Below the pieces are notes generated by a model. It saw nothing but the letters and a program-made list of their open reading frames with translations. It made no database searches and was not told the origin of the DNA. The translations under genes and the position numbers were made by a program. Positions 24,782-48,640 of a stretch of DNA of 51,442 nucleotides are shown here, in pieces. Positions within the stretch are counted from its first letter, which is position 1; each line of letters begins with the position of its first letter. The stretch is taken from positions 1 to 51,442 of the forward strand of contig JAPLKC010000023.1 in NCBI GenBank assembly GCA_026388255.1. Direction: 5' to 3'. Source of the DNA: Pseudomonadota bacterium (lineage in GTDB: Bacteria; Desulfobacterota; Syntrophorhabdia; Syntrophorhabdales; Syntrophorhabdaceae).

Positions 24782-26590
24782 TTATTCCCCGGCCTTTGTC
24801 AAATCTTCAAATCTGATATCAAGACCCAATATGCCTATTATATCCCCGAACTCATCTCTAATAGGTCCAGAAACGGTTACACAAAGAGCGCCGGTAATTT
24901 TTGATGAATATATATCCGTTACACTAATCTTTCCTGTTTTCATGGGATTTATAAACCAGTCCCTATCTGAAAAATCCTCATGCAAACCTATTTTGGAGTA
25001 TTTGGCTCTGTCTACCACCTGTGTGATATTTCTTGTAATTTTAATGCCTTCACTGTTAACAGTATATGCAAACTGTATATAGGGATATTCCTCAACAATA
25101 TTTTTTAATGCATTCTCTTGTTGTAACGGCGCCATGCTCTTTATATCAATATTTTCAATATATTTTTCTATTAAATGCGCCGCCATGTCATGAGCTTTTT
25201 TCTTCAAAAGCTCGAATTCAGACATAAATATTTCGGGCATATACCTTCTGACAGCATGCTCCATCTCATCATCCGACATAGAGGTTACTCTTCCTTCATC
25301 ATACTGCTTGATTATCCTTTTGTTAATCTTCGCTACTCCAGGATGTGTCTTTTCTACCCTATCTTTTCCAACCAGTGCAAAATGCGAGCTTATCCAGTGC
25401 GCAATTCCCGCGAGACCTGACTTATCGGTTATATTAACGGTTATTGGCCTGTCGAGAAGCTTGTTTGTGTCAAAAGATGAGTATATCTCTTCATTTTTCA
25501 ATAAACCGTCTATATGTACACCTGCTGATGTTGCATTAAAATCAAGTCCTACTAAGGGCTGGGTCCTCGGTATGTGATAGCCCAATTCTTTTTCAAAATA
25601 GTTCCTGATCTCCGTAATTACCTTAGTATCAACACCATTCTCTTCACCTGTAAGAGATATATATTCCATTATAAGTCCTTCAATAGGGGCATTACCGGTC
25701 CTCTCCCCTATACCGAGCAATGTTCCATTTACATATGAACAGCCATAAAGCCATGCGCTCACACTATTTATAATAACTTTGTTAAAATCATTATGACCGT
25801 GCCATTCAAGATACTCTGAAGGAACCCCGGCATCATCAATCATAGCCCTGATAATTTTTCCCATAGACCGCGGAAGTGCTGCACCAGGATACGTAATGCC
25901 AATCCCGAGAGTATCACAGAGCCTTATCTTTACCGGTATCTTTGCCTCTTCCGACATATTAACTAGGGCTTGTGCAAAGGGAACGCAGAAACCATATATG
26001 TCGGCCCTTGTTATATCCTCAAAATGACACCTCGGAATTATGCCGTGTTCAAGAGTGCTTTCTACAATCTTTACATAGTCTTTAAAAACCTGTGAGCGCG
26101 TTTTCTTTAATTTCATGAATATATGATAATCAGAAGCACTTGTAAGTATGCCTGTCTCTTTTAGTCCCAGATCTTTTACAAGCTGTAAGTCCTCTTTTAC
26201 AGCTCTTATCCAGCCGGTAATTTCTGGATAACGGTAGCCTTTGTCAAGACATCTTACAACGGCATCTTTATCTTTATCGCCATAAAGGAAAAACTCGCTT
26301 TGTCTTATCACACCGTTCGCTCCGCCGAGCCTATGCAAAAAATCAAAAAGGTCTTCAATCTGCTTTGCCGTAAAAGGCGGCCTGGATTGCTGACCGTCTC
26401 TGAATGTTGTATCCGTAATAAATATATCATCAGGGGGGTCGATGAGTTCGATCTTGTGGTCAAATTTTACTTTGCACATTTCCGTATACGGAAAAACATC
26501 CCTGAAAAGCTCAGGAATTTCAACGTCTATCAAAGGATATTTCGTACCTCTGGCAACATTTTTAAATATAAAGCCTTTCTTCTTTTTCAA
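24782..26590 (-). CDS. Re-citrate synthase homologue (DRE-TIM) with C-terminal Cache-like domain
   Basis: 602 residues. The N-terminal DRE-TIM barrel (about 50-340) has [14 protein letters not shown] (metal and base residues, 60-72), [11 protein letters not shown], and the metal-binding HGHND near 265. This motif set is that of Re-citrate synthases rather than LeuA or ordinary homocitrate synthase, and there is no LeuA regulatory domain. Residues about 480-602 look like a PDC/Cache sensor fold ([39 protein letters not shown]). C. kluyveri Re-citrate synthase is about 450 residues, so this is an extra domain. It would make citrate from oxaloacetate and acetyl-CoA. It is 4 bp before the aconitase-like pair. 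Homocitrate synthase is the alternative. Confidence 0.82.
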
Positions 26591-33252: not shown

Positions 33253-34517
33253 AAGATACTGCGGTACTGCTTCTGGCCGGTGGGGTGGGAAGCAGACTGA
33301 ATATCCTCGTAAGCCATCGGGCAAAACCCGCTGTTCCATTTGGCGGCATATACAGGATTATTGATTTCACGCTCAGCAATATAGCAAACTCACGTCTTGC
33401 AAACGTTGCGGTACTCACCCAGTACAAGCCTCTTTCTCTTATGGATCATATAGGCAATGGTTCGTCCTGGGATCTTTCAGGACGTTCCCGGAGCACAAAG
33501 ATACTACCTCCAAAAACAGGGGAGAAGGAATGGGACTGGTATAGAGGCACGGCTGATGCAGTCCGTCAGAATCTGGATTTTTTCACCTCAGGGAGTTATA
33601 AAAACGTCCTTGTCCTCTCCGGAGATCACATATACCATATGGATTACCGGTCAATGCTCCAATTTCACCACGAGCATGGAGCCAAGGTTACCATAAGTAT
33701 GATAGAAGTACCCTGGGAAGAAACCCATCAATTCGGCACAGCCATCATTAATGAACAATACCGTATCATAGAGTGGGAAGAAAAATCCCCCCAGGCAAAA
33801 TCAAACCTTGCCTCAATGGGAATATACGTCTTCGACAGGGATTATCTCGTTGAGCTTCTTGAAGCAACAAAAGAGTTAGATTTCGGGCACCATATTATCC
33901 CGAATGCATTACAGGAAGGTAATGTCTTCGCATATCCTTTTGATGGCTACTGGCGTGATGTGGGGACTGTTCAGGCTTACTGGGATGCAAATATGGACAT
34001 TCTCGATGCCGCAAGCGGGCTTTCTCCTGAAGCATGGAAGATAATGTCGAATTTAAGTACAAAGGGAATTCCTTATGATCGTCCACCCATTATGGTTACA
34101 AAAACAGGTCATATAATGAATTCAGTAATATCACCTGGATGTATAATTTCCGGCAAAGTGGAAAACTGCGTTCTATCCCCCGGGGTAGCAATAGAACAAG
34201 GTGTCTCTGTAAAAAATTCTGTTGTTATGCATGATACAGTCATTAAAGAAGGGTCTCTTGTGGAGCGGTGCATCATAGATAAAAAGGTGTTTATCGGGAA
34301 AAAATCACATATAGGCATTGGTGATGCTTTGGTTGCCAATCGCCTCTTTCCCGACCATCTCAATACAGGTCTGACACTCATAGGTAAATATTCTGTTATA
34401 CCCGATAATGCAACAATCGGCACTGACTGCATTATATATTCGATGACTGCTGAAAAGGATTTTTACACATTACATGTTGCCGACGGGGAAAACCTTCAGA
34501 AGAAAGAAGTCGGTTAA
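33249..34517 (+). CDS. glgC: Glucose-1-phosphate adenylyltransferase
   Basis: 422 residues. The intact loop LLLAGGVGSRLNIL is followed by HRAKPAVPFGGIYRIIDF, then YRGTADAVRQN, LSGDHIYHMDY, WEEKSPQAKSN and a C-terminal beta helix. All catalytic residues of the family that I can place (Arg of GSRL, Lys of AKPA, Asp of GDH) are present. It makes ADP-glucose from ATP and glucose-1-phosphate for glycogen synthesis. Start overlaps the stop of the GlgC-like paralogue, so translation is probably coupled and the two may form a heterotetramer. No glycogen synthase is in the window. Confidence 0.93.
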   Translation: MKDTAVLLLAGGVGSRLNILVSHRAKPAVPFGGIYRIIDFTLSNIANSRLANVAVLTQYKPLSLMDHIGNGSSWDLSGRSRSTKILPPKTGEKEWDWYRGTADAVRQNLDFFTSGSYKNVLVLSGDHIYHMDYRSMLQFHHEHGAKVTISMIEVPWEETHQFGTAIINEQYRIIEWEEKSPQAKSNLASMGIYVFDRDYLVELLEATKELDFGHHIIPNALQEGNVFAYPFDGYWRDVGTVQAYWDANMDILDAASGLSPEAWKIMSNLSTKGIPYDRPPIMVTKTGHIMNSVISPGCIISGKVENCVLSPGVAIEQGVSVKNSVVMHDTVIKEGSLVERCIIDKKVFIGKKSHIGIGDALVANRLFPDHLNTGLTLIGKYSVIPDNATIGTDCIIYSMTAEKDFYTLHVADGENLQKKEVG

Positions 34518-34522
34518 TAAGT

Positions 34523-34540
34523 AAGATCAAATTATCTTAT
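34523..34540. terminator. Weak shared hairpin between convergent glgC and the anti-sigma gene
   Basis: TAAGAT-CAAATT-ATCTTA followed by TTTCTT on the + strand. It lies 6 bp after the glgC stop and covers the stop of the - strand gene. The stem is short and A/T-rich, so the call is weak. Confidence 0.3.
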
Positions 34541-34995
34541 TTCTTAATAAATTTAACTAATGTTATGGTGTTTTTCCCTTCGATCGTCTCATATAGCACT
34601 TCGTCCATCAGGGAGTTTATGATATGCAAACCCATTCCGCCAACGGGTAGCGTTTCAATTTTATCCGGCTCAAAATCGAGGCATACATGGTTGGAATTGC
34701 ACTGAGTGGGATTCATGCCCTTGCCAATGTCACTTATCTTAAAAACCATTTTATCGCTATAAACAAAAATATTAATTTCAACATTTTGTCCCTGCTCAGA
34801 GTTGTATGCGTGTTTTATTGCATTAGTTACTGCTTCTGTCACACTTAATTCCATGTTATAAGGCTCATTTTTGTTAATGAATATAAAATCACATATGGCT
34901 TTTACTGTGATACCTACAAGAGATACGTTCTCAAACCTGCTCTCAATTGACAGAGCAATTGATTTATCCGGTAAAATTTCTTTTATGTTCATCAT
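34537..34995 (-). CDS. Anti-sigma-factor-type serine kinase (RsbW/SpoIIAB-like)
   Basis: 152 residues forming a compact GHKL ATPase: N box VTEAVTNAIKHAY, G1 box ISDIGKGMNP and G2 box GGMGLHIINSLMDEV. In partner switching such kinases phosphorylate a STAS antagonist and sequester a sigma factor or other target. The start overlaps the STAS gene's stop (ATGA), so the two are translationally coupled. No sigma factor is encoded next to it; the target may be elsewhere or be another protein. Confidence 0.9.
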   Translation of the reverse strand: MMNIKEILPDKSIALSIESRFENVSLVGITVKAICDFIFINKNEPYNMELSVTEAVTNAIKHAYNSEQGQNVEINIFVYSDKMVFKISDIGKGMNPTQCNSNHVCLDFEPDKIETLPVGGMGLHIINSLMDEVLYETIEGKNTITLVKFIKK

Positions 34996-35327
34996 GTGAT
35001 TGACTTTATTGCTTCTTCTTCAGATAGGAATATTTGAAATACCCGGTCTATACGTGTCAGATGGAAAAGGTTTTTCACAGTTTCGTTCATACCGCAAATC
35101 ACAAGATATCCCTCGTTGCCGATTGTTTTTAAACTCGACACAATCGCCCCTAGCCCACTGCTGTCTATGAATTCCACTTCAGAAAGGTCGAGCACTATTC
35201 GTTTGTTTCCATTATTAATCCAATCCACCATTCTTCCTTTTAAATCAGTGGATAAAGAAGCATCGATTCTTTTCTCAAAAGGCTTGACAACCAGAATTTC
35301 ACCGAGTTTCTTACCATGTATTTGCAT
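34992..35327 (-). CDS. STAS-domain anti-sigma factor antagonist (RsbV/SpoIIAA-like)
   Basis: 111 residues from the ATG preceded by AAAGGAG; a TTG five codons upstream would contain that ribosome-binding site and is rejected. The STAS fold carries the phosphorylation motif FIDSSGLGA, with Ser56 the expected acceptor. It would be phosphorylated by the kinase encoded downstream and dephosphorylated by the SpoIIE-type phosphatase encoded upstream. Confidence 0.92.
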   Translation of the reverse strand: MQIHGKKLGEILVVKPFEKRIDASLSTDLKGRMVDWINNGNKRIVLDLSEVEFIDSSGLGAIVSSLKTIGNEGYLVICGMNETVKNLFHLTRIDRVFQIFLSEEEAIKSIT

Positions 35328-35342
35328 GTTATCTCCTTTCAA

Positions 35343-35425
35343 TTATTTGGACCCCCGCGGATACCCTGGCGCCCCATACGTAATCCGTAAACCAAGCTGC
35401 CGGGACCTCCCCTTTTCGCTCATTG
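35343..35425 (-). promoter_or_regulatory. GC-rich structured leader upstream of the STAS gene
   Basis: This block is much more GC-rich than its surroundings. On the - strand CCCGGC can pair with GCCAGGG, and GGATTAC with GTATCC, and a GGCGCC palindrome lies between. It ends 15 bp before the STAS gene's ribosome-binding region. It may be a cis-regulatory RNA or a dispersed repeat; I do not recognise a known class. Confidence 0.35.
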
Positions 35426-35480
35426 TATGAACCAAAGCAATTCATCATAATTGGGGCTTACAATTGTCATGCCAGTCCAC

Positions 35481-36677
35481 TCAACCTTCTTTCTTATATT
35501 CAATTCCTACAAGCGTAATGTCGTCCTGAAACTCTATTATACCTTCTCCAAAGTTATTAATAGAGGCTATTACCTTATTAAGCATGTTGTCAACAGTTTC
35601 GTTTTTAATGGTTTCAAGTAGGGAATAAAAACGTTCTTCACCGTAAAACTCACCATTTTTGTTCTGAAACTCAACTACACCATCTGTATAAAGTATAATT
35701 TTGTCTCTTTCTTTAAGCATTTTTTGTTCTTCTTCAAAGGGCATTATTCCACCCATCCCTATGATGGTCCCGCCTTTATCTAAAAATTCCATATTGCCAT
35801 TGTGTCGCAGGAGTACAGGTGCTGGATGTGCGGCATTGCTGTAAAAAACCGTATTATCAAGGATATTAATAATTAAATATGTCATGGTAAAATATTTATC
35901 AAACCGCTCGAGAGGATATTCGTTGTCAAGGGCCTGCATCACTTCTTTAGGTGAAGCTATTTTATAACCTGGCGGCCTATCATATTTTCTTTTTGTAATA
36001 TTGCCAATATTGGGTTGCAGTATCTGGGACAGGGAAACGGTAACGAGAGCAGAAGGAACGCCGTGACCGCTTACATCAATCATGTAAAAGGCTATATTGT
36101 TTTCATCGAGCTGGATAATGTTGAATATATCTCCCCCGATTAAATATGAAGGGAGAAATTTCCAGGCTACATCAAGTCCTTCAATATGCGGAATTTTTTG
36201 CGGCAGCAAACTTCGTTGAATGCCTCCCGCTGCCTCAAGGTCTTCATCAAGCCTTTTTTGCTTGACCGTTAATTCCCTGTTTTTGTCGATTAATTCATGG
36301 GTTAAGTGACGGATTTTAAGCTGGTTCTGCACCCTTGCAACCACCTCGCCCTTGTCAAAAGGCTTGGTAATATAATCTGCTCCGCCCATTTCAAGCCCTT
36401 TTATCTTATCTGCTGTGTCGGTTTTTGCAGAAAGAAAAATAATGGGTATATCCATTGTTTGCTCAGCCTGTTTAAACTTTACACATACTTCATAGCCATC
36501 AATTCCAGGCATTACAATATCGAGAAGTATAAGATCAGGGGCAAATGTGTCTGCCTTTTTAATTCCGTCAGAGCCATTGGATGCTTCCATCACCTCATAT
36601 CCTGCCCTTTTCAGTATAAGTAAAAGAAGTTTTCTCAGATCTTCACTATCGTCGACAATCAGAATTTTATCTGCCAT
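35481..36677 (-). CDS. Response regulator with SpoIIE/PP2C-type phosphatase output (RsbU-like)
   Basis: 398 residues. Residues 1-125 are a receiver domain with acidic pair D9/D10, phosphoacceptor D53 (LLDIVMPGIDG), and Lys in TKPFDKGE. A short coiled coil (about 125-160) links to a PP2C-like SpoIIE domain with GGDIFNI (near 186), DVSGHGVPSAL (near 205-215), YTDGVVEFQN and DDITLVGI at the end, so the metal-binding Asp residues are present. Phosphorylation of the receiver should switch its activity on the STAS protein. It thus connects a two-component signal to the partner-switching pair downstream. Confidence 0.93.
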   Translation of the reverse strand: MADKILIVDDSEDLRKLLLLILKRAGYEVMEASNGSDGIKKADTFAPDLILLDIVMPGIDGYEVCVKFKQAEQTMDIPIIFLSAKTDTADKIKGLEMGGADYITKPFDKGEVVARVQNQLKIRHLTHELIDKNRELTVKQKRLDEDLEAAGGIQRSLLPQKIPHIEGLDVAWKFLPSYLIGGDIFNIIQLDENNIAFYMIDVSGHGVPSALVTVSLSQILQPNIGNITKRKYDRPPGYKIASPKEVMQALDNEYPLERFDKYFTMTYLIINILDNTVFYSNAAHPAPVLLRHNGNMEFLDKGGTIIGMGGIMPFEEEQKMLKERDKIILYTDGVVEFQNKNGEFYGEERFYSLLETIKNETVDNMLNKVIASINNFGEGIIEFQDDITLVGIEYKKEG

Positions 36678-36784
36678 AGGCTATTATATTATAACCAACT
36701 ATTCGTTTTGTAAAAGGTTTATTTACTATGTTTTTTTGAAAGTCTGCCCTTTTAGAGTAAAAGATTTTAAATAAGCTGTATAAT

Positions 36785-37407
36785 ATGAAAAATGAGCAGC
36801 GCAAAGAAGCGCGTAGGATAAATAACTCCATAAATCTCCCTTTTCCGGGCTCAAACCACCTCTGGTTTGAATACCAGCTATATCCATATCCTGTACCAGC
36901 AACTCAGAGAGAACATACACTTATTATTCTTATGAAGGACTCTGTATTGTTAAAAAAGGAGTTTATATATATCCGGGCCATGTTATCCCGCATTCTTCAA
37001 GGATTACAGATTATTCACAACTGGAATATCCCCAGCTAAAAGACTATTTCTTGGAAGATGTAAGAAAAAAAGTCAAGGAACATCATACAGCGCTTGAAAA
37101 CATATTTATAAAACTTAAAAACAAAATGTCATCTGCCTGAGAAATATCTAAATCCATTGAACTTGAAGAACTTAGGTCGATAGTTGAGTCGGAAATATAT
37201 TTAGAAATATTCAAAATTACTTTTTCTGATGATCATACCATGCTCTACCTGAACGTAATAAAAAAACTGGAAGACAAATTGTATCTCAACTACAATATCA
37301 TAGTAATGCTGTATTTAGATTCATTGTAATTTTTTTATGATAACAGGTTAAAACTGCAACTGCTCGTTCAAGAAACCCGCCTTTTAAAAGCGAAGATATT
37401 CGTCTTT
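36785..37407 (+). pseudogene. Decayed gene of unknown family
   Basis: This 857-bp gap (36678-37534) has no intact gene but shows coding remnants. It starts with an 84-codon ORF (MKNEQRKEARRINNSINLPF). A second frame then carries a longer sensible stretch (YEGLCIVKKGVYIYPGHVI, later YFLEDVRKKVKEHHTALENI) to a TGA at 37138. The same frame goes on as IELEELRSIVESEIYLEIF to TAA at 37327, then as NRLKLQLLVQETRLLKAK to TAA at 37405. One frameshift and two stops interrupting helix-rich, charged sequence suggest a recently decayed protein. I cannot name the family. Confidence 0.45.
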
Positions 37408-37534
37408 ATTTAAAGTTCTTTTTGTTTTCAAAAACAGATGTTGCATAACCTGTTGAAAAACAATATTCATCAAGTTATTATATGTTTTGTAAGCATGTAG
37501 GATAAGCATCTTTTGAAAGGAGGAGCAATTCCCC

Positions 37535-37858
37535 ATGACATATGATACCGATACAAGTAAAGGGAAAACAATTGTTCGCATAGACAAGGATTTGGAAGAC
37601 CTGATACCCGGATACCTCGAAAACAGACAAAAAGATATAAAGTCCCTGCTGGTCTCCCTTGGGCGCGAGGATTATGAGAGCATACGGATTATAGGACATA
37701 GCATGAAAGGCTCTGGTGGAGGCTACGGATTTGATGATATCTCCACACTTGGCAAGTCAATAGAGGAAGCAGCAAAAGATAAAAATTATGAAGCAATCAA
37801 GAGATATGCCTATGAACTTTCAATTTATCTTGAAAACATTGACATAATTTATGCATAA
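37535..37858 (+). CDS. Histidine phosphotransfer (Hpt) domain protein
   Basis: 107 residues, essentially a single Hpt domain. The phosphoacceptor is H55 in IIGHSMKGSGGGYGF, with the conserved Lys and Gly residues after it. The start has GAAAGGAGG upstream. The end overlaps the ATPase gene by 8 bp, so the two are co-translated. As a free phosphotransfer protein it should shuttle phosphate between the hybrid kinases' receiver domains and a response regulator, most simply the receiver domains of the overlapping gene's product. Confidence 0.92.
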   Translation: MTYDTDTSKGKTIVRIDKDLEDLIPGYLENRQKDIKSLLVSLGREDYESIRIIGHSMKGSGGGYGFDDISTLGKSIEEAAKDKNYEAIKRYAYELSIYLENIDIIYA

Positions 37859-40418
37859 CCCGGACAGACCTTTAATTTTGAGTATTGATGATGATCCGGA
37901 TATAAGGCGGCTTATCGAACAGATACTGATTAATAATAATTACGAGGTTGTTGCTGCCGAAAACGGAAAAAAAGCACTCCAGATAATTCACACATTGAAA
38001 CCTGATCTAATTTTGCTTGATGTATTAATGCCGGACATGGATGGTTATGAAACCTGTTACCGGTTGCAGCAAAATACTGAAACTGCATATATACCTGTTT
38101 TATTTCTAACCGGCATTGAAGAAGAACAGAACAAAGCAAAGGCCTTTGCTGCAGGGGCAGTTGACTATATAGTAAAACCTTTTAAAAGAAAACTACTCCT
38201 TGAAAAAATTAAACAACATATAAATACAAAAACCCGTTGGAAAACAGTGGAAAAAGGGATTGTTCCGGAGCAGGAAGGAAAAATCACTCCTTCAGACTTT
38301 ATTCAATTCAAAGAGTTTCTTGCCGAAGAACTCGGCTTTTCCTCTGACATAAAAGACAGGCTTATGCATACTATCCCTTCTCAAATCTATTCGATGCTTT
38401 CGGATTCAGGCATTCCGAGTAGTCAGGTGGCACAGCTTATCGCAAAGTTTTTTAGATTTCGTTACACGCCTATTATAGACCCCGATGATGTAAATCTGGG
38501 CATACTTTCTACACCTTTTTCGAAGAGCAACTCTGTTGTTGCCGTTAAGTCAGAGACTATGGACAATACGTATGTTCTGAGCAACCCTTTTAACTGGGAA
38601 CTTCTTGCAGTTTTGAAAAAAAATTCAAGGTCAAAACAGATAGATATCGTAATCACTGAACCGGAGAATATAGCCTCATTATTAAAATACGGCACAACCG
38701 CTGCAGATCAAATGATTGACAAGCTCGAAGAAAAGATAAAGATTGCAAGACCTGCTTCTGAAAAAAAGAGCCTCATTACTGAAGAAGAAACTGAAAAACG
38801 TCCCGTGGTACATATTACAAATACAATTCTTTACACTGCCGTAACCAGCAAGGCAAGCGATATTCATATCGAACCAAAGGAAAAACATACCATAGTCCGA
38901 TTCAGGATAGACGGGGATATGAGAGACATGTTTTCTCTGAACAAGGATACGGGCATTATGGTATTGACACGGTTAAAGGCCCTTGGAGGGCTTGATATTA
39001 CAGAACGGCATAAACCACAGGACGGTTCCCTGGAAGCCATAATCAATAACAGAAGTTTCAAGCTCAGACTTGCAAGCACCTCAACACCCAGTGGAGAAAG
39101 TTTAATCATAAGGATGCTTGAACCGGATGCAAAGCAAAAGGATCTGAAAGAACTGGGAATGATGGATCAACAGTTCGAGACAATGCATGATTTTGCAGGA
39201 CGAACTAAAGGCATGGTTCTCGTTGTCGGGCCAACCGGTTCAGGGAAAACCACTACCATTTATAGCCTCCTCTCCCAGATAGATTGCCAAAAAAGAAGCC
39301 TTATCTCAGTTGAAGATCCTGTTGAATACCGTATAACTTTTGCCAACCAGCAACAGGTGGATGATAAAAAAGGGGTGACTTTTGAAGCAATTCTTAAATC
39401 CTCAGTAAGACAGGACCCTGATATTCTGTTTATCGGTGAGGTAAGGGATTCCTATTCGGCAAGCATTGCCGTTGATTTTGCAAGCACAGGACACCTTGCG
39501 ATTACAACCTTGCATACATCGAACGCCACTACTGCAATATTCCGTCTTGAAAGGCTTGGAATTAGTAGAGGTCAGATGGCAGACTCAATCCTTGGTATTG
39601 TTGCCCAGCGATTATTGAAAAAGCTCTGTCCCTATTGCAAAGAGATAGTGCCCATCTCTGATGAAGAGGCAGATATGCTTGCACCATTCACAGATCAACT
39701 GCCTGTTGAGGTTGCCCACCCTGTAGGCTGTCCGAAATGCAGTGAAACCGGTTATGCCGGACGCGAAGGGGTCTATGAAATCATACCCTTCGAACCTGAA
39801 ACAATAGAAATGGTACGGGCCAATAAATCTATTGTCGAGATACGAGAATATGTAGCTAAAACCGGCGTTAAACTTATCAGCCACCATGCAGTGGAAAAGG
39901 TCAAGGAGTTTCTCTTTTCACCACAGGCTGTATACGAAAAAATACTTGTGGAAGAACAACTTTTACAAACGCAACAAAGTACACAGATGGCCGATAAAAT
40001 CCCTGACATACCTGTGATTGAACAAATATCCGTTCTGGTTAAAACAGACAGCGAAAAGATATCAATGCTGGTCGTTGAAGATGATATGGATACCCAAAGA
40101 CTGATAACCCGTTACCTTCAGGGTGAGGGTTATGATGTAAGGGTTGCCAATGACGGCATTGATGCCTTAATGCAGTTGGCGCAAAAGAATTTCAATCTTA
40201 TCCTCTCGGACATTCAGATGCCCAATTTAGACGGATTTAAGTTCATGGAACTGAAACAACAAAAGGGCATAGAAACTCCCTTGATTTTCATTACTTCACA
40301 AGATAGCGATGAAGACGAGATCAAAGGTTTTAAACTCGGCGCAACAGACTTTATCAAAAAACCGGTAAAGAAGGATGTCCTGTTATTAAGAATTAAAAAG
40401 GCTCTCAAAGGCATCTGA
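37851..40418 (+). CDS. REC - PilB/GspE-type secretion ATPase - REC fusion
   Basis: 855 residues. Residues 1-125: receiver (acidic SIDDDPD, phosphoacceptor D57 in LLDVLMPDMDG, Lys in VKPF). Residues about 140-300: T2SSE N-terminal-like region. Residues about 320-700: GspE/PilB ATPase with Walker A GPTGSGKTTT (near 460), Asp box SVEDPVEY, Walker B ILFIGEVRD, His box TLHTS and the zinc tetracysteine CPYC...CPKC near 592-628. Residues about 738-855: a second receiver (VVEDD, Asp near 786 in LSDIQMPNLDG, Lys in KKPV). Such ATPases power pilus extension or type II secretion. Two terminal receivers imply direct control by phosphorylation. No pilus or secretion genes are adjacent. Confidence 0.9.
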   Translation: MHNPDRPLILSIDDDPDIRRLIEQILINNNYEVVAAENGKKALQIIHTLKPDLILLDVLMPDMDGYETCYRLQQNTETAYIPVLFLTGIEEEQNKAKAFAAGAVDYIVKPFKRKLLLEKIKQHINTKTRWKTVEKGIVPEQEGKITPSDFIQFKEFLAEELGFSSDIKDRLMHTIPSQIYSMLSDSGIPSSQVAQLIAKFFRFRYTPIIDPDDVNLGILSTPFSKSNSVVAVKSETMDNTYVLSNPFNWELLAVLKKNSRSKQIDIVITEPENIASLLKYGTTAADQMIDKLEEKIKIARPASEKKSLITEEETEKRPVVHITNTILYTAVTSKASDIHIEPKEKHTIVRFRIDGDMRDMFSLNKDTGIMVLTRLKALGGLDITERHKPQDGSLEAIINNRSFKLRLASTSTPSGESLIIRMLEPDAKQKDLKELGMMDQQFETMHDFAGRTKGMVLVVGPTGSGKTTTIYSLLSQIDCQKRSLISVEDPVEYRITFANQQQVDDKKGVTFEAILKSSVRQDPDILFIGEVRDSYSASIAVDFASTGHLAITTLHTSNATTAIFRLERLGISRGQMADSILGIVAQRLLKKLCPYCKEIVPISDEEADMLAPFTDQLPVEVAHPVGCPKCSETGYAGREGVYEIIPFEPETIEMVRANKSIVEIREYVAKTGVKLISHHAVEKVKEFLFSPQAVYEKILVEEQLLQTQQSTQMADKIPDIPVIEQISVLVKTDSEKISMLVVEDDMDTQRLITRYLQGEGYDVRVANDGIDALMQLAQKNFNLILSDIQMPNLDGFKFMELKQQKGIETPLIFITSQDSDEDEIKGFKLGATDFIKKPVKKDVLLLRIKKALKGI

Positions 40419-40464
40419 ACTTTCGGTGCATACAAAAAAGAAGAAATGTTCGGAGGCAGTATCT

Positions 40465-43341
40465 ATGGAAGATATGTATAATACAAAAAAACAACTTATT
40501 GATGAGCTTCAACGATTGCGTCAACGGAATATTGAACTGGAAAAGCTGGAGATCGAGCACAAACAACTGGAAGACCTTGTTATTCGTGCCAAACAGGAAT
40601 GGGAATATACATTCGATTCCGTGCCCGATCTGATTGCACTCATTGACGGTCAACACCGTATTATGCGGGTAAATAAAGCAATGGCAGATAAGTTGGATCT
40701 TTCACCAAAGGAAATGGTCGGGATGCCATGCTATAAATCGGTTCATGATATGGAAACCCCGCCTGTTTTCTGCCCCCATACCCTCTTATTGGAGGATGGA
40801 CAAATCCATAACGCAGAACTTCAAGTAGAGGCTTTCGGAGGTTTTTTCTCAGTAACTGTCTCTCCGCTATATGATGAAAAAGGTAATCTGATTGCCTCTG
40901 TTCATGTTGCCCGCGACATCACCGAACTTAAGATGGCAGAGGATGCGCTTAAAGACAGCGAGAACTACTTAAAATCCATATTAAACTCTGTGCAAACAGG
41001 GGTCATGCTCATCGATGTCGATGAACATAAGATCGTTTACGCAAATCCTGCGGCTATCACAATGATTGGAACCAATGAAAAAAACGTCATCGGCAAGACA
41101 TGTCACACCTTCATATGCCCGGCAGAAAAAGGGAAATGTCCGATTTCCGACCTCAAACAGACTGTCGATAATTCAGATAGAATTCTCATAAATGCTAATA
41201 GCGAGAGAATACCAATTATTAAAACAGTTGTTCCCATAAAAATAAGCGGTCATGCATACTACCTGGAGAGTTTTGTCGACATTACCGAACGTAAGGGAGC
41301 AGAAGAAAGAATTCAGGAACAAGTGCATTTCTTGCAGGTGTTAATTGATTCAATTCCCGCACCGGTATTCTACAAGGACTTACACGGTTTATACGTGGGC
41401 TGCAATCGAGGTTTCGAGTCTCATCTTGGTCTGCTTAAAGAACAAATTATCGGCAAATCTGTTTATGACGTAATGACAAAGGAAGTGGCTGAACAGATTG
41501 ATAAAATGGACATGGCCCTTTATAGGGAGCCGGGGATACAACGGTATGAAACAACTGTTGCTCATCCCGACGGTTCAAACCATGACGTAGTATTCAGTAA
41601 AGCTACCTATATAGACAGGAAAGGAAGCATTACCGGACTGGTCGGGGTAATCCTTGACATTACTGATCTTAAAAAAACTGAGATTGCTTTGCGGAAAGCA
41701 AAGGAAGAAGCAGAAGTTGCAAACCGTGCAAAAAGTGAATTTCTTGCAAGCATGAGCCATGAAATCAGAACTCCAATGAATGCCATAATAGGCATGGCTG
41801 AACTTCTCATGGATACGCCACTCACCTCTGAGCAGGAAAAGTATGTCCAGGTTTCCCGGGGCGCAGGGGAAAACCTTCTTGGACTCATAAATGATATCCT
41901 CGATCTTTCTAAAGTGGAGGCCGGCCAAATAAACCTGGAACATATAAGCTTTGATCTCATGGATGTCATTGAAAGGACCTACGATATTCTGGCGCTCCGG
42001 GCTAATGAAAAAGCCCTGGAGCTGACCTGCCATGTATCCCCGGATATTCCCGCTTACTTGATTGGAGATCCGACACGATTGCGACAGGTTCTGGTTAATT
42101 TAATCGGAAACGCAATAAAATTTACAGAAAAAGGTGAAGTTGTTGTCGAAGTAAGCAAACAAGGTTCAGAAAAAGAGGTTCAAGGTCTTTCAGATTCTAA
42201 ATCCAAAATTCTAAATTCTAAATCAGAAATAGTTACCCTTCTGTTTTCTGTTCGCGATACGGGTATCGGCATTCCGGATGAAAAAATTAATATGATCTTT
42301 GAAAAATTTACTCAGGCAGATGCTTCAACTACAAGGAGATATGGCGGAACAGGCCTTGGATTGACCATTTCAAAAAGGATTATCCATCTCATGGAAGGTG
42401 AAATCCGGGCTGAAAGCAAAGTCAATGTTGGAACCACTATGTTCTTCACAGCATGTTTTAATATTCAGGAGGGCTTGAAAGAAGAGAAGACCTTGCCTTA
42501 TAATGTGAATTTAAAAGATGTTAAAGTTCTCGTCATTGATGATAACGCTACAAACAGAATGATTTTGAGAGAGATGCTAAGCAGCTTCGGCGCTCAGGTA
42601 ACAGAGGCGGAAAACGGCAAGACCGGTCTTGAAATACTGGAGCACAGCGTTGTTGGAAAAGAATTGATAGGGCTTGTTTTTCTTGATTATCATATGCCTG
42701 ATATGGATGGTTTTGAAGTAGCAGAACGTATTAAAAAAAATGAACAGCTCAAACATGTCTCTGTAATTATTCTTACTTCAGGATTTTCTAAGAGCGATAA
42801 GGAAATGGCCCATCAGTTTAACATCACGTCAATACTATTTAAGCCGATCAAACGTGCTGAACTAAGAGAGGCAATCAATATTGCAATGCATTATATCCCT
42901 CATAAAGATGATGGAGCTCAAGCCCACGTTGTTCAACCATCTCCCGGTGAAAAAGAGGTTTTACATGTACTGATTGTTGATGATAATGAGGATAACCGAT
43001 TGCTCTTCTGGTCATACTTTAAAAATACGCTTCATAAAACAGATTTGGCAGAAAACGGCCTGGTGGCTTTAAAAAAATTTACAGAAGGTCAGGGAAAATA
43101 TGATCTGGTTCTGATGGACATGCAAATGCCGATAATGGACGGTTACACAGCTACTTCACAAATAAGGGCATGGGAAAAGAAAAACGGGCTTGAACCAACG
43201 CCGATCATTGCCCTTACAGCATATGCCATGAAAGAAGATATTCAGAAAAGTCTTGGGGTCGGATGCAACGGTCATATAACAAAACCGGTAAAAAAGACAC
43301 AGTTTCTTGAAGCTGTTGCCGCTTATGCTAAGAGAAAATAA
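40465..43341 (+). CDS. Cytoplasmic hybrid histidine kinase with PAS repeats and two receivers
   Basis: 958 residues from the ATG with GGAGG 8 bp upstream; a GTG 13 codons earlier lacks a site. A short N-terminal coiled coil is followed by three PAS-type domains (about 45-160, 165-280, 290-405), HisKA with H432 (SMSHEIRTP), HATPase (DTGIGIP, GGTGLGLTIS), then two receivers, each with an Asp (FLDYHMPDMDG and LMDMQMPIMDG) and Lys. No membrane helix is seen, so it should sense a cytoplasmic or redox signal. An A/T repeat inside the ATPase domain encodes a loop. It lies 46 bp after the ATPase gene and probably feeds the Hpt protein. Confidence 0.93.
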   Translation: MEDMYNTKKQLIDELQRLRQRNIELEKLEIEHKQLEDLVIRAKQEWEYTFDSVPDLIALIDGQHRIMRVNKAMADKLDLSPKEMVGMPCYKSVHDMETPPVFCPHTLLLEDGQIHNAELQVEAFGGFFSVTVSPLYDEKGNLIASVHVARDITELKMAEDALKDSENYLKSILNSVQTGVMLIDVDEHKIVYANPAAITMIGTNEKNVIGKTCHTFICPAEKGKCPISDLKQTVDNSDRILINANSERIPIIKTVVPIKISGHAYYLESFVDITERKGAEERIQEQVHFLQVLIDSIPAPVFYKDLHGLYVGCNRGFESHLGLLKEQIIGKSVYDVMTKEVAEQIDKMDMALYREPGIQRYETTVAHPDGSNHDVVFSKATYIDRKGSITGLVGVILDITDLKKTEIALRKAKEEAEVANRAKSEFLASMSHEIRTPMNAIIGMAELLMDTPLTSEQEKYVQVSRGAGENLLGLINDILDLSKVEAGQINLEHISFDLMDVIERTYDILALRANEKALELTCHVSPDIPAYLIGDPTRLRQVLVNLIGNAIKFTEKGEVVVEVSKQGSEKEVQGLSDSKSKILNSKSEIVTLLFSVRDTGIGIPDEKINMIFEKFTQADASTTRRYGGTGLGLTISKRIIHLMEGEIRAESKVNVGTTMFFTACFNIQEGLKEEKTLPYNVNLKDVKVLVIDDNATNRMILREMLSSFGAQVTEAENGKTGLEILEHSVVGKELIGLVFLDYHMPDMDGFEVAERIKKNEQLKHVSVIILTSGFSKSDKEMAHQFNITSILFKPIKRAELREAINIAMHYIPHKDDGAQAHVVQPSPGEKEVLHVLIVDDNEDNRLLFWSYFKNTLHKTDLAENGLVALKKFTEGQGKYDLVLMDMQMPIMDGYTATSQIRAWEKKNGLEPTPIIALTAYAMKEDIQKSLGVGCNGHITKPVKKTQFLEAVAAYAKRK
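42193..42224. repeat. ATTCTAAAT-type simple repeat inside the kinase ATPase domain
   Basis: Direct repeats of ATTCTAAAT (CAAAATTCTAAATTCTAAATC) encode a Lys/Ser-rich loop (KSKILNSKSE) between strands of the HATPase domain. The related kinase at 43945 has an unrelated insert at the same place, so the loop tolerates variation. Confidence 0.5.
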
Positions 43342-43368
43342 ATCTGAATTTATACATTAAGGAGAGAT

Positions 43369-43944
43369 ATGATTGACAGAGAAAAAGGTTGGCAAGACAA
43401 AGCAACAAATCTACAAAAGGACATGTCATATTTATTGACCCATGATTCCATTACAGGGCTTCCGAATCGGGCACTTTTTTATGACCGCCTCGACATGGCT
43501 ATCATTCAAGCACAGCGCAATAAGGAAAGGTTTGCTGTTATGATAGTTGATCTTGATGATTTTAAAAAGATTATTCATACCAACGGCCATCTCGTTGGCG
43601 AAAGCCTGTTGAAAGAGACAGGCGTACGACTCACAAAATGCATCAGAAAAGTGGACACCGTGGCTTATCTCGGAGGAGATGAGTTTGCAATAATCCTGCC
43701 GGCAGTTATGCGAAAAGACAACACCATCAAGGTTGCAAGAAGCATAATTAAATCCTTTCAGTACCCCTTCGATATTAATGAAAGCTTATTTTACCTCACC
43801 GGAAGCATCGGCATCTCCATTTTTCCGGAGCATGGAAACCTGGCAGAGGAGTTGTTGAAGAACGCAGATATTGCATTGTATTATGCCAAAGACAAAGGGA
43901 AGAATAATTTTCAATTCTATTCGTACGCATTGAAGGCGCTTTAG
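43369..43944 (+). CDS. GGDEF-domain protein with altered substrate-site residues
   Basis: 191 residues, almost all GGDEF domain, with AAGGAG upstream. The signature loop is intact (GGDEF at residues 102-106), and the N-terminal THDSITGLPNRALFYDRL and DLDDFK segments are typical. However, where diguanylate cyclases usually read FKxINDxxGHxxGD, this protein has FKKIIHTNGHLVGE: the guanine-binding Asn is Ile and the later Asp is Glu. It may have weak activity or be a GTP or c-di-GMP-sensing relic. No separate sensor domain is present. It is 27 bp after one hybrid kinase and directly abuts the next. Confidence 0.88.
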   Translation: MIDREKGWQDKATNLQKDMSYLLTHDSITGLPNRALFYDRLDMAIIQAQRNKERFAVMIVDLDDFKKIIHTNGHLVGESLLKETGVRLTKCIRKVDTVAYLGGDEFAIILPAVMRKDNTIKVARSIIKSFQYPFDINESLFYLTGSIGISIFPEHGNLAEELLKNADIALYYAKDKGKNNFQFYSYALKAL

Positions 43945-46900
43945 ATGCCATCACAATTCCTCAAAGGTCAAATGGATTATATCTTCTTCTTCTACGGATT
44001 GGCACTTCTTATACTTGCCGCAACATGTCTTAGTTTATACAAAAGAGAGAGGTCTGATCTTCCCTGGATGTTTTTAGGGCTTTTCGGTTTAATACAAGGT
44101 CTTAACGAATGGCTTGAGCTTTTATCCATCAGTCTGTGGGACACGCCAGGCATTACTGTTTTACGACTTTTCCTGCTAATCCTCTCATTTATCTTTCTTA
44201 TAGAATTCGGGCGGGCAGGGAGTATTGCTCTGACAGGAAAGGGTCCTGGGCGCTGGATTTATCTGCCGCTTCTATGCTTAGTCCTTTTAGGCGGCTTTTC
44301 GGGCATAAATGGCTTAGATACTTCTGCCAGATACGCCCTGGGGCTAACAGGCGGTTCATGGACAGCCTTCGTTTTTTACCGTGAATCCCTGATTAAAAAA
44401 GCCGGCGGAAAAATAATGGTTATTGCGGCTTTAGCAATGGTTTTGTATGCTGTTGCATCAGGCATCATCGTTCCTCAGATAGATTTCTTCCCCGCATCCT
44501 TTATAAACAATGAAACTTTTTTTAAGGCTTCGGGCTTTCCCGTTCAATTGCTCCGGGGGGGGCTCGCAATTATCATTGCCGTTGCTATCTGGATATATCT
44601 TAACACCTTCAGACAGACAAAACGCATGGAATATGGCGTAACGTCACATGACTATTATTCTATTATTATGGTTGTTTTCATGTTTTTTGTTTTAATAGGA
44701 GGATGGTTTGCTACTGCTAAAATGGACTGGCATGCGAGAAGAATACTCCGGCTTGAATTCCTCACGAGGGCAAATATTATTGCTGCCGCTATGCCTTTGG
44801 AAAAGGTTAAAATCCTTACCGGCTCCCCTGATGATGTGAGTCTAACGGGCTATAATCAATTACGTGAGTTGCTGGCTAAAATAAGTGCAGCGCAGAAGGA
44901 TCTCCGTCGTATCTACCTGATAAACTCTAAAGAAAATAAAGTATTATTTTATCTTGATGCTCAATTTGATAGACCGAAGGAATTTAACAACCCTTCAGTG
45001 CTGCCGGGCGATATTTACGAGAATGCCCCTTGGAACATCAAGGAGGTGCTTGAATACGACCACGGCACAGTAACCGGTCCTCATGTTGATTCTCGCGGCA
45101 CCTATGTTTCTGCTTTTTCCCCTATCCGCGATCCTGTTTTACTGCAAAATTATGCATTCATTGCAGTGGATATGGACGCACTGGAGTGGAAGAGGCTTGT
45201 CAGTATTTACCGTCTCGTTCCAATATGTGTTACAATAGTCATTGCATTGATATTGTTTGGTTTTATTGTTGTCATGCAACGTCAGAAAGAAGACACCGAA
45301 AGAATCCTTGCAGCAGAGGCGGCATTGCAGGAACAGTTCCAGTTTATCCAGACAATTATGGAAACAATACCAAGTCCTGTTTTTTTCAAAGACAAAAAAG
45401 GGGTTTTTCAAGGGTGCAATAATGCCTTTGAGCAATTCACCAACAGGCCAAGACACGAAATTGTCGGCAAAACTCTGTACGATATATTATCGCCGAATTT
45501 GGCGGAAAAAGATCATAAAATGGACATCCTGCTCCTTCAAAACCATGAATATCAGGCCTACGAATTGGAGATCCCCTATCCCGGGGGTGCTATACACGAT
45601 TTTATTTTCCGCAAAGCCCTCTATAAAGATACCGATGGATCCCCGATCGGCATAGTAGGCATTCTTCTTGATATTACTGAACAAAAACAGGTAGAAGAAA
45701 GGCTGAAAGAGTCGAAGGAGGCAACAGAGGCATTAAACCGGCAACTCGAATCGGTAGCCATAGAGTCAAAACGCTTGGCAATAGAGGCTGAAAAAGCCAA
45801 TGTTGCAAAAAGCGCTTTTTTAGCAACTATGAGTCATGAAATCCGGACACCGATGAATGCTATTATCGGCATGGCAGATCTTCTCCGGGAATCTCCTTTA
45901 ACACCGGAACAACAACAGTATGTGGAGATTTTTAAATCAGCCGGTGATAACCTGCTTTCGCTTATTAATGACATTCTGGACCTGTCAAAGGTTGAATCCG
46001 GGCAATTGAGTCTGGAAATTGCTGAATTTGATCTTCTGGAAATTATTGAAAAAACATGTGAGGTCATTGCTGTTCAGGCTCACAAAAAGGGGCTTGAGGT
46101 GGCCTGTCACATTCAACCGGATGTCCCCCGTTACGTTAACGGCGATTTTACCCGTTTAAGACAGATCTTAATCAACCTCCTCGGCAATGCCGTCAAATTT
46201 ACCGAAAGAGGAGAGATAGTCCTGGAAGTAAAAAAACCGGTATGGAATGAGGACATGCCTCAATTCGCAACCCCCTTCACAAATTTGCAGGTGCTGCAAT
46301 CGGAAATCACCCTCATCTTTTCTATAAATGATACAGGTATCGGCATTCCACCTGATAAAATGGATGCCATTTTCGAACGATTTACCCAGGCAGATTCTTC
46401 TATAACAAGACAATACGAAGGTTCAGGACTTGGTTTAACAATTTCAAAACAACTGGTGGAAATGATGGGTGGGCAAATATGGGTGAAAAGCGAGGTCGGA
46501 AAGGGGAGCAACTTTTTCTTTACAGCAATGTTTGACTGTTGTGATAAAGAAAGGGAGATTGTCCGGATACCCGATGTAGACATAAAAGGATTAAGGATTC
46601 TTGTTATTGATGATAATGCAACAAACCGTTTTATTTTAAAAGAGATGCTGATCAGATGGGGGGCTGTCGTAACAACAGTAAAAAATGGCGCTCAAGGGCT
46701 CGTTGCAATTGGAAAGGCAAAAAAATCAGAAACACCTTTTAATCTGGTGCTTCTGGACGTCCGTATGCCATTTATGGATGGCTTTTCCGTTGCGGAAAAA
46801 ATCGGAAGCGATCCGGACCTGATGGGCACAACCGTCATAATGCTCACCTCTGAAAGCCGCACAGGCGACACAAACAGGGCAAAGGAATTGGGAATAGCGG

Positions 46901-47409
46901 CATATCTCATGAAACCAGTTAAGCAGAAAGACCTTCAAAACGCCATTAAAGTTGCCCTCGGAAAGACCATAATTGCAAAGGAAATAAAATCTGATACAGC
47001 CCCGGCTTTACAAAAAGATCAACGGCCTCTTCGCATCCTTCTCATCGAAGACTCTGATGACAACCGCCTGCTCATAAAGGCATATCTAAAAAATACCCCT
47101 TATCTTATTGATATTGCTGAAAATGGCAAGATTGGCATAGATAAATTTAAGAATAATGTCTTTGATCTGGTTCTAATGGATATGCAAATGCCTGTCATGG
47201 ATGGGTATACAGCTACCAAACAGATCAGGGGGTGGGAGCAGGAGAACAATCTAAAACCCACACCAATAATAGCTTTAACGGCTTATGCCTTGAAAGAAGA
47301 TGCTCAAAAGAGCCTTGATGCAGGATGCAATGCCCACTTGACAAAACCGATAAGAAAGAATTTTATGCTGGAAAAGATTTTTGAATATACAAACAAATTG
47401 CAGGTATAA
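43945..47409 (+). CDS. Membrane hybrid histidine kinase with 7TM-like and extracytoplasmic sensor regions
   Basis: 1154 residues; the ATG directly follows the previous stop and no clear ribosome-binding site is visible, so coupling is likely. Residues 1-225 contain about seven hydrophobic helices, then another helix (about 233-255), an extracytoplasmic region (about 256-415) with a double-Cache feel (RRIYLINSKENKVLFYLD, GTYVSAFSPI), and a final helix (about 420-445). The cytoplasmic part has PAS (about 465-580), coiled coil, HisKA with H631 (TMSHEIRTP), HATPase, and two receivers (LLDVRMPFMDG, LMDMQMPVMDG). The kinase half is a paralogue of the gene at 40465. Probably feeds the same Hpt. Confidence 0.92.
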   Translation: MPSQFLKGQMDYIFFFYGLALLILAATCLSLYKRERSDLPWMFLGLFGLIQGLNEWLELLSISLWDTPGITVLRLFLLILSFIFLIEFGRAGSIALTGKGPGRWIYLPLLCLVLLGGFSGINGLDTSARYALGLTGGSWTAFVFYRESLIKKAGGKIMVIAALAMVLYAVASGIIVPQIDFFPASFINNETFFKASGFPVQLLRGGLAIIIAVAIWIYLNTFRQTKRMEYGVTSHDYYSIIMVVFMFFVLIGGWFATAKMDWHARRILRLEFLTRANIIAAAMPLEKVKILTGSPDDVSLTGYNQLRELLAKISAAQKDLRRIYLINSKENKVLFYLDAQFDRPKEFNNPSVLPGDIYENAPWNIKEVLEYDHGTVTGPHVDSRGTYVSAFSPIRDPVLLQNYAFIAVDMDALEWKRLVSIYRLVPICVTIVIALILFGFIVVMQRQKEDTERILAAEAALQEQFQFIQTIMETIPSPVFFKDKKGVFQGCNNAFEQFTNRPRHEIVGKTLYDILSPNLAEKDHKMDILLLQNHEYQAYELEIPYPGGAIHDFIFRKALYKDTDGSPIGIVGILLDITEQKQVEERLKESKEATEALNRQLESVAIESKRLAIEAEKANVAKSAFLATMSHEIRTPMNAIIGMADLLRESPLTPEQQQYVEIFKSAGDNLLSLINDILDLSKVESGQLSLEIAEFDLLEIIEKTCEVIAVQAHKKGLEVACHIQPDVPRYVNGDFTRLRQILINLLGNAVKFTERGEIVLEVKKPVWNEDMPQFATPFTNLQVLQSEITLIFSINDTGIGIPPDKMDAIFERFTQADSSITRQYEGSGLGLTISKQLVEMMGGQIWVKSEVGKGSNFFFTAMFDCCDKEREIVRIPDVDIKGLRILVIDDNATNRFILKEMLIRWGAVVTTVKNGAQGLVAIGKAKKSETPFNLVLLDVRMPFMDGFSVAEKIGSDPDLMGTTVIMLTSESRTGDTNRAKELGIAAYLMKPVKQKDLQNAIKVALGKTIIAKEIKSDTAPALQKDQRPLRILLIEDSDDNRLLIKAYLKNTPYLIDIAENGKIGIDKFKNNVFDLVLMDMQMPVMDGYTATKQIRGWEQENNLKPTPIIALTAYALKEDAQKSLDAGCNAHLTKPIRKNFMLEKIFEYTNKLQV

Positions 47410-47414
47410 AAGGT

Positions 47415-47472
47415 ATCCCGTGGCTTTCCGGGTAACCACTTGTTGGTGTTTCTCGACGTACTTTGTAGTACG
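47415..47472. repeat. Hairpin cluster after the hybrid kinase
   Basis: In the 226-bp gap before galT, CCCG...CGGG (47417-47432), GTGG (47420-47423) with CCAC (47436-47439), and CGTACT-TTGT-AGTACG (47457-47472, perfect 6-bp stem) follow one another. They look like a short palindromic repeat or the end of the signalling operon. The rest of the gap (47473-47635) has no visible gene. Confidence 0.4.
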
Positions 47473-47635
47473 CCTCCGGCTGATAGTAGGCTGCTGAAAG
47501 ACTTGTTTTTCCTGTTGTTAATATAATCTGTTTGGCATAAAATCAATTTATTAATCCACGGTTTTCTGTTAACAGACAAAGTAAGCTTAGACCGTTAAAA
47601 AGTTAACTGTGAGCAATTAAAACTGGGGGTGAAAC

Positions 47636-48640
47636 ATGTCAGAAGTCCGTTTAAACCTTATAACCGGCGATTGGGTTGTGATTGCGACAGAACGTGCAAA
47701 GCGCCCGGAAGATTTCGTCCATATAAAACAAAAAAAGGAAGTACCAGCTTACGTTGCTACCTGTCCCTTTTGTAAAGGAAATGAGGACAAGACCCCGCCA
47801 GAAACCTTTTCGCTAAAAGGGCCTGATGATAACTGGCTGGTAAGATGCGTGCCGAATAAATTTTCCGCCTTTTCACCTGAGGGCGAAATAGTCAAAACAA
47901 AAATAGATTTTAAACAACACATTACAGGCGTTGGGCTCCATGAAGTGATTGTTGAGGCACCGGAACACAATATGACAACTGCATTGCTCCCTGTTGCTCA
48001 TATTGAACAAATATTGCTTGCCTATAAAAATCGTCAACTCGCATTTTATGAAGACTCAAGAATTGAGCATGTGATTATATTCAAAAATCACGGCGAAGGC
48101 GCTGGCACCTCTCTGGAACATCCCCATTCACAAATTGTCGGCACGCCGGTATTTCCGGGACAGGTCATGCACCGTCTCGAAGAGGCAATCAGGAACTATT
48201 ATTACGTTAATTTTGGAGAATGTCTTTATTGCTTGTACTTGAAAGATGAGCAAAAGGACAAAATACGAATCATCAGTGAGAACGATTCCTTTGTCGCCTT
48301 TGTGCCCTATGCCGCTTTGTCGCCTTTTCATGTATGGATTTTTCCCAGGAAACATAACGCATGTTTTGGCCATATAACAGAAACGGAAATATCAGATCTT
48401 GCCGTTATACTTAAAGATACGCTTTTGCGTATCTATGTCGGACTTGATAATCCGGATTTTAACTATGTCATAAGGTCTTTGTCGTCGGCAGGCGCTGATT
48501 CAAAGTTTTTTCACTGGTATATGGCAATAATACCGAAGGTAACTCAGATAGCAGGATTTGAACTCGGTACAGGCATGTTTATAAATACTGCCATGCCTGA
48601 AGAAAGCGCCAGATTTTTAAGAGAAGTAAAGATTCTGTAA
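47636..48640 (+). CDS. galT: GalT-family nucleotidyltransferase
   Basis: 334 residues of the HIT-superfamily hexose-1-phosphate uridylyltransferase family. A CxxC zinc pair lies in CPFCKG near residue 44. The active-site motif is H162-P-H164-S-Q166, with H164 the expected nucleotidylated residue, preceded by NHGEGAGTSLE. GalT enzymes usually have HPHGQ; HPHSQ also occurs in ADP-glucose:phosphate adenylyltransferase-type relatives. The ribosome-binding site is GGGGGTG. Galactose metabolism is the default role, but a link to ADP-glucose from the glgC pair is possible. It stands alone, downstream of the signalling island. Confidence 0.8.
   Translation: MSEVRLNLITGDWVVIATERAKRPEDFVHIKQKKEVPAYVATCPFCKGNEDKTPPETFSLKGPDDNWLVRCVPNKFSAFSPEGEIVKTKIDFKQHITGVGLHEVIVEAPEHNMTTALLPVAHIEQILLAYKNRQLAFYEDSRIEHVIIFKNHGEGAGTSLEHPHSQIVGTPVFPGQVMHRLEEAIRNYYYVNFGECLYCLYLKDEQKDKIRIISENDSFVAFVPYAALSPFHVWIFPRKHNACFGHITETEISDLAVILKDTLLRIYVGLDNPDFNYVIRSLSSAGADSKFFHWYMAIIPKVTQIAGFELGTGMFINTAMPEESARFLREVKIL

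Follow-up and report, generated by a model that had tools for sequence, protein, structure and literature searches.

A putative type IV filament motor with a receiver domain at each end and its own phosphotransfer protein: a candidate phosphorelay output

A locus in the genome of a Pseudomonadota bacterium (GTDB family Syntrophorhabdaceae) probably encodes an assembly motor for a type IV filament, either a pilus or a pseudopilus, which would itself be the response regulator of a multistep phosphorelay. It lies in a stretch of 51,442 nucleotides that was analysed as a whole and is called the window below. This proposal is drawn from the domains and retained residues of the motor and from the genes that accompany it in 18 related loci.

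Domains and residues of the motor

The motor gene (37851–40418, plus strand) codes for a protein of 855 amino acids in which a first receiver (REC1) is followed by a domain of MshEN fold that lacks the c-di-GMP motif, by a T2SSE ATPase and by a second receiver (REC2), as judged from Pfam, alignment and Foldseek. A sequence-only reading of this DNA had placed a T2SSE ATPase between two receivers, and Pfam and the alignment give the same order at the exact coordinates of the open reading frame. The T2SSE profile (PF00437) scores 355.4 bits against a curated cut-off of 24.9, so that the protein belongs to the superfamily; the ATPase core covers residues 313–686 according to Pfam (38787–39908, plus strand). 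Response_reg matches two stretches (Pfam, 188.6 bits for a cut-off of 30.2), the best of which, residues 9–121, is REC1, also recognized in the alignment (37875–38213, plus strand). REC2 was delimited by alignment to about residues 735–853 (40053–40409, plus strand).

The residues typical of response regulators (acidic pair, acceptor aspartate, threonine or serine, lysine) are complete in both receivers: D13/D14, D57, T87 and K109 in REC1, E743/D744, D787, T815 and K837 in REC2. The two phosphoacceptors claimed in the earlier reading, D57 and a C-terminal aspartate (D787), are thus intact, and so are the catalytic boxes that it had described as complete, namely Walker A and B, the His box and the zinc cysteines; K466, E530, H555 and C593/C596/C627/C630 are identical in all 13 aligned rows. 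That reading would have been contradicted by homologues consistently lacking the acceptor aspartates, and the alignment shows them conserved: D57, D787 and their partners are retained wherever the domain is present and readable, with the exception of a change in the acidic pair of G041. These acceptor readings exclude REC2 of G282, part of which, including D787, is masked.

Two more specific identities were tried and rejected. With the NCBIfam profiles, the protein falls short of the cut-offs both for the PilB of type IVa pili (TIGR02538, 366.1 for an equivalog cut-off of 675.65) and for the GspE of type II secretion (TIGR02533, 382.8 for an equivalog cut-off of 630.25). A structure model of the full-length motor, calculated with three sequences, has a mean pLDDT of 51.4, with most of the core below 50, which is too low for the arrangement of the ATPase and the receivers to be taken from it.

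The middle domain (residues 140–300; 38268–38750, plus strand) was modelled alone with two relatives, at a pLDDT of 83.7, and this model predicts an MshEN/GSPII fold. In Foldseek it matches the N-domains of MshE, of PilF from Thermus and of PilB from Xanthomonas (E-values as low as 1.7e-4, probability 1.00), the TM score to PilB-N (7lko) being 0.63, and the Pfam MshEN profile (PF05157) gives 21.1, slightly below its cut-off of 23.1. Against a profile built from ten family members, the 18 family rows (counting those ten) reach 112–226 bits, and none of the other T2SSE rows or of the Pseudomonadota rows described below exceeds 30 bits. The tandem 24-residue c-di-GMP binding motif of MshEN was taken from PMC5013675. 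Even a relaxed single form of it is found in none of the 13 family rows tested (out of 18; G219, G282, G386, G418 and G437 were left out); among 56 other T2SSE rows, 25 have it one or more times and 31 do not. The missing motif is therefore evidence against c-di-GMP binding, yet its absence is common among ordinary motors.

Distribution of the family

In a draw of 395 genomes from the phylum, full-length or near full-length relatives (E<=1e-95) occur in 12 genomes, including that of the window, which speaks against a chance arrangement; three of these carriers belong to the window's family. No such motor was found in G001, the one other genome of the window's genus that was searched. A further carrier is Deltaproteobacteria bacterium AB_3033_Bin_75 (L048), and a draw around a Nitrospirae bacterium (L097), in which the architecture was read for the loci that were returned or fetched, added five: G701 has the complete REC-T2SSE-REC order, G641 and G508 are T2SSE-REC, G418 and G437 are REC-T2SSE, and all five have the middle domain. 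These 18 loci (12, one and five) make up the family set. Two further draws consist for the most part of genomes already in the phylum draw and were excluded as independent evidence.

The Hpt gene and its link to the second receiver

The motor gene is preceded by a gene for a probable phosphotransfer (Hpt) protein of 107 amino acids (37535–37858, plus strand; acceptor H55), identified from the list of open reading frames, Pfam, its HxxKG motif (H55-S-M-K-G) and the scores of its relatives. Its own Pfam score (PF01627) is 23.3 bits, slightly below the cut-off of 24.6, and the seven motor-adjacent relatives that were scanned all exceed this cut-off (32.1–56.4 bits). The overlap of the two genes announced in the sequence-only reading is confirmed: the stop of the Hpt gene and the start of the motor gene share 8 bp, ATGCATAA, at 37851–37858 on the plus strand. 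An overlap of the same length is found in six loci (the window, G012, G003, G041, G113 and AB3033). About 830 bases immediately 5' of the Hpt gene (36700–37530) contain no open reading frame of 90 amino acids or more on either strand. The region 34000–48000 has no Rfam match; scans for promoters (32 found, 25.2 expected), terminators (10 found, 9.4 expected) and viral contigs (one weak match) gave nothing more.

The survey of REC-T2SSE-REC proteins and their neighbours that had been proposed with the earlier reading was carried out on the 18 loci, and the pairing with Hpt is conserved in 16 of them, where the Hpt gene adjoins that of the motor or, in G701, stands one gene away; the exceptions are G418 and G437. 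In 13 loci, including the window, the Hpt gene precedes that of the motor on the same strand; in G096 the two are convergent, and in G368 and G386 it lies downstream and its product is of another sequence type (about 30% identity; 52.1 and 56.4 bits with Pfam). The acceptor histidine is present in all 16. It is important to note that the 18 loci are related, so these counts are not independent of each other. When the Hpt of the window was searched in eight genomes, each gave zero to two matches, zero being found only in G001, the genome of the same genus that has no such motor; the second relative in G003 (C56) has no adjoining receiver gene. Neither type of Hpt was matched at four unrelated REC-T2SSE loci of Nitrospirota that were read with wide flanks (L197, L198, L200 and L201), nor at an unrelated T2SSE-REC locus (L199).

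The earlier reading also proposed that the motor is controlled at both ends; both receivers are intact in the window, but control at both ends is not a constant of the family. REC1 is missing in three of the 18 loci (G183, G641 and G508), all of which retain the Hpt, and REC2 is missing in three others (G096, G418 and G437). All 15 motors that have REC2 are paired with an Hpt, compared with one of the three that lack it (G096). REC2 and Hpt thus appear to be the constant couple and REC1 to be dispensable; we take REC2 to be the probable main partner of the Hpt because the latter tracks REC2 and survives the loss of REC1.

Hybrid kinases and other neighbours

Two hybrid kinases had been noticed downstream of the motor, and both are present on the plus strand, at 40426–43341 (PAS repeats, HisKA with H445, HATPase and two receivers) and at 43945–47409 (PAS, HisKA with H631, HATPase and two receivers), as assigned by Pfam. 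They are separated by a gene for a GGDEF protein (43369–43944, plus strand, Pfam) that the earlier reading did not mention. Of the 16 loci whose sequence leaves space for one, 11 are flanked by a hybrid kinase that matches the window's kinase cores at 50% or above (the sequences of G113 and AB3033 start with the Hpt gene); none was seen in the flanks read of G003, G183, G096, G418 and G437. The nine kinases that were scanned, two from the window and seven from relatives, all have HisKA, HATPase_c and receivers, the receiver of G386 being incomplete, and none of the nine contains an Hpt domain, so the free Hpt would provide the missing step of the relay. The order from kinase receiver to Hpt to motor receiver, which the sequence-only reading regarded as plausible, is in keeping with these observations. 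Chemosensory control of the Pil-Chp type, with a CheA-type kinase, an MCP and CheW at the locus, is not what we see: the window's kinases are HisKA hybrids, and none of the eight neighbours scanned gave a CheW or MCP signalling domain.

GGDEF proteins are encoded near the cassette in several loci, despite the motif-less motor: besides that of the window, they are found at L131:7639–8622 (assigned by eye), L133:2–1663, L134:10406–13318 and L135:2788–4911. A gene that we named GalT-like by eye follows the kinases of the window (47636–48640) and has a counterpart, 74% identical, beside the Hpt gene of G003 (L130:7933–8967). On the minus strand upstream of the locus (34537–36677), genes for a REC-SpoIIE phosphatase (35481–36677), a STAS protein and a HATPase_c_2 protein, which we take to be RsbW-like, form a trio that resembles a partner-switching system and adjoins the phosphorelay motor. 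Farther away, the C-terminal part of a HMGL-like protein (24782–26590, minus strand) matches an MCP-like PDC sensor domain with an E-value of 2.4e-14.

Prepilins and the filament

In seven of the 18 loci (G012, G041, G078, G113, G183, G219 and G282), the motor adjoins genes for a prepilin and for a Zn-ribbon membrane protein; no such prepilin is encoded at the other 11 loci, including the window. Six prepilins from five loci were scanned and all score above the N_methyl cut-off, two of them having a C-terminal PF06439 domain; that of G183 is similar by eye. The Zn-ribbon protein was found in seven of the 13 genomes searched, with a single match each, always inside the cassette, and the genome of the window has none. 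The adjoining prepilin is probably the substrate of the motor in these seven loci. In the case of the window, pilins are encoded elsewhere in the genome, together with three platform proteins that have two T2SSF domains each; the substrate would be one of these pilins, with a shared platform of the PilC/GspF type. G003, G113 and G183 each have only one platform protein over the cut-off, so the motor would have to share it.

The two prepilins with a C-terminal PF06439 domain (3-keto-disaccharide hydrolase-like; L129:8692–9660 and L132:3550–4467) may perhaps form a sugar-binding tip of the pilus. In G012 (L129:7904–8770), an Hpt domain whose acceptor histidine has been replaced is fused to the Zn-ribbon membrane protein, and an intact pair of Hpt and motor is encoded close by.

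Evolution of the motor core

Between the motors of the window and G701, identity is 35% in the core, 57% in REC2, 48% in REC1 and 39% in the middle domain, and the core of G701 is no closer to that of the window than any other T2SSE compared (33–40%). Within the main clade (eight relatives in the alignment), no other part is as well conserved as the core, which has 61–76% identity. Trees of the core split the family and put the main clade on a long branch; seven short or duplicate rows were omitted from the first one, including the frameshifted core of G386 (L046), and twelve further near-copies from the later one. AU tests fail to reject a single clade (p 0.0998 with 17 rows, p 0.273 with 14 rows). 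The identities and the trees would favour a regulatory shell that was placed on different motors; the AU tests, with which a single origin would agree as well, and the long branch of the main clade speak against it.

An unrelated family of motors with receivers

In a draw of Pseudomonadota around a Gammaproteobacteria bacterium (L060), matches at E<=1e-92 were obtained in 39 of 398 genomes and for the most part cover the ATPase and the C-terminal receiver. Ten loci from ten of these genomes were read (L249–L258): CheW follows the motor in all ten, and nine also have genes for an MCP-like protein and for a CheA-like kinase. In the two loci on which Pfam was run, T2SSE, REC, MshEN and CheW are found together with a CheA-type kinase that contains Hpt and REC; one of the two also shows an MCP signalling domain. 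Like the motor of the window, these proteins have a C-terminal receiver and a kinase module with an Hpt nearby; unlike it, they have an MshEN domain above the cut-off and a chemosensory kinase, and they form one clade of their own (100/100), apart from the Hpt family. We know of no name for such motors in CheW-MCP-CheA clusters. Such a motor looks like an output that a chemosensory system controls directly, and motors wired to phosphorylation thus appear to have evolved on more than one occasion.

The idea that the locus embodies a principle distinct from the usual c-di-GMP-binding N-domain should be qualified accordingly. The N-domain is indeed devoid of the motif, but the fusion of receivers and motors is not unique: unrelated families of REC-T2SSE and T2SSE-REC order exist, among them REC-T2SSE motors of Nitrospirota, where the four loci read gave no match to either Hpt type, and the association of MshEN with REC is already in print (PMC5013675).

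Proposed mechanism and alternatives

We propose that a PAS-containing hybrid kinase would autophosphorylate at H445 or H631, and that the phosphate would pass from this histidine to a receiver of the same kinase, next to H55 of the small Hpt protein that is co-translated with the motor, and from there to D787 of REC2, the constant partner, and also to D57 of REC1 where this domain is present. The phosphorylated receivers would alter the assembly of the ring, its docking to the platform or the hydrolysis of ATP, and in this manner switch filament assembly. The relay is well supported by gene linkage; that phosphotransfer occurs and acts on the motor, the direction of phosphate flow, the sign of the effect, the choice of REC2 as main target of the Hpt and the filament that is driven are what we infer.

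The main rival to a phosphorelay motor is a PilB-like signalling role, in which an ATPase derived from a motor senses phosphorylation, and perhaps its nucleotide state, and controls for example exopolysaccharide synthesis but drives no filament. The PilB of Myxococcus regulates exopolysaccharide independently of pilus assembly (PMC5544727), the window's cassette has no pilin, and the protein falls so far below the PilB and GspE cut-offs that motor activity could have drifted. We nevertheless consider this unlikely, given the invariant catalytic residues, the strong conservation of the core within the main clade and the prepilin that accompanies seven of the motors. It may also be that the receivers are mainly structural or localizing, or that the Hpt is a phosphate sink for other receivers (those of the kinases, REC-SpoIIE or other regulators), phosphorylation of the motor being minor. 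Many receivers are indeed encoded close by, REC1 can be lost, being absent from three of the 18 loci, and G418 and G437 keep REC1 with no Hpt in the vicinity; on the contrary, the retention of both acceptors and their partners, G041 apart, and the presence of one or the other Hpt type beside every motor with REC2, when the four unrelated REC-T2SSE loci have no match, make this reading quite improbable. As for c-di-GMP made by the operon's GGDEF protein, which would be the main control as in MshE, the MshEN fold, the gene between the kinases and the GGDEF proteins near four further loci speak in its favour. We rejected it as the main input since the binding motif is missing from the family rows tested, and we hold it to be very unlikely, even if most of the ordinary rows also lack the relaxed motif.

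A broader scenario, which we put forward tentatively, is that fusion turned type IV filament motors into response regulators on two occasions or more: as the terminal output of a relay of hybrid kinase and Hpt, known here from the window's phylum and from Nitrospirota, and as the terminal output of a CheA chemosensory cluster in Pseudomonadota. In the first case, a portable phospho-shell made of REC1, the motif-less MshEN domain, REC2, Hpt and hybrid kinase would have been set on different cores, with a dedicated pilin, and would have replaced control by c-di-GMP.

Comparison with known systems and significance

In Pseudomonas aeruginosa, the receivers PilG and PilH of the Pil-Chp system are phosphorylated via the phosphotransfer domains that ChpA contains, and they control PilB, the extension ATPase (PMC12632253). 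The window's system is similar in that receivers phosphorylated through phosphotransfer domains would act on a pilus motor; the difference is that the Pil-Chp receivers are separate proteins, PilG setting the location of PilB, and depend on a CheA-type kinase, whereas those of the window are part of the motor and are associated with a stand-alone Hpt and hybrid kinases. In Synechocystis, a phosphorylated response regulator of the PixG/PATAN type interacts with PilB1 and PilC (PMC12288463), in trans and via its PATAN domain, again unlike receivers that are fused to the motor. MshE, PilF and PilB share with the window's motor the ATPase superfamily and the fold of the middle domain, but the latter has no c-di-GMP motif and has gained phospho-receivers. 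Judged from titles and the beginnings of abstracts, we recognized no description of a system of motor, receiver and Hpt in the open-access literature searched.

For the control of pilus motors by two-component and chemosensory systems, the arguments have so far come chiefly from trans-acting regulators such as PilG and PixG. A motor equipped with receivers and with an Hpt of its own reduces the question to two or three proteins. The presence of receivers at both ends of the motor, with a dedicated Hpt and usually kinases, suggests that the cell may switch the motor directly by phosphorylation. The separate chemosensory version would mean that receiver domains have in this motor a natural target on which they act directly.
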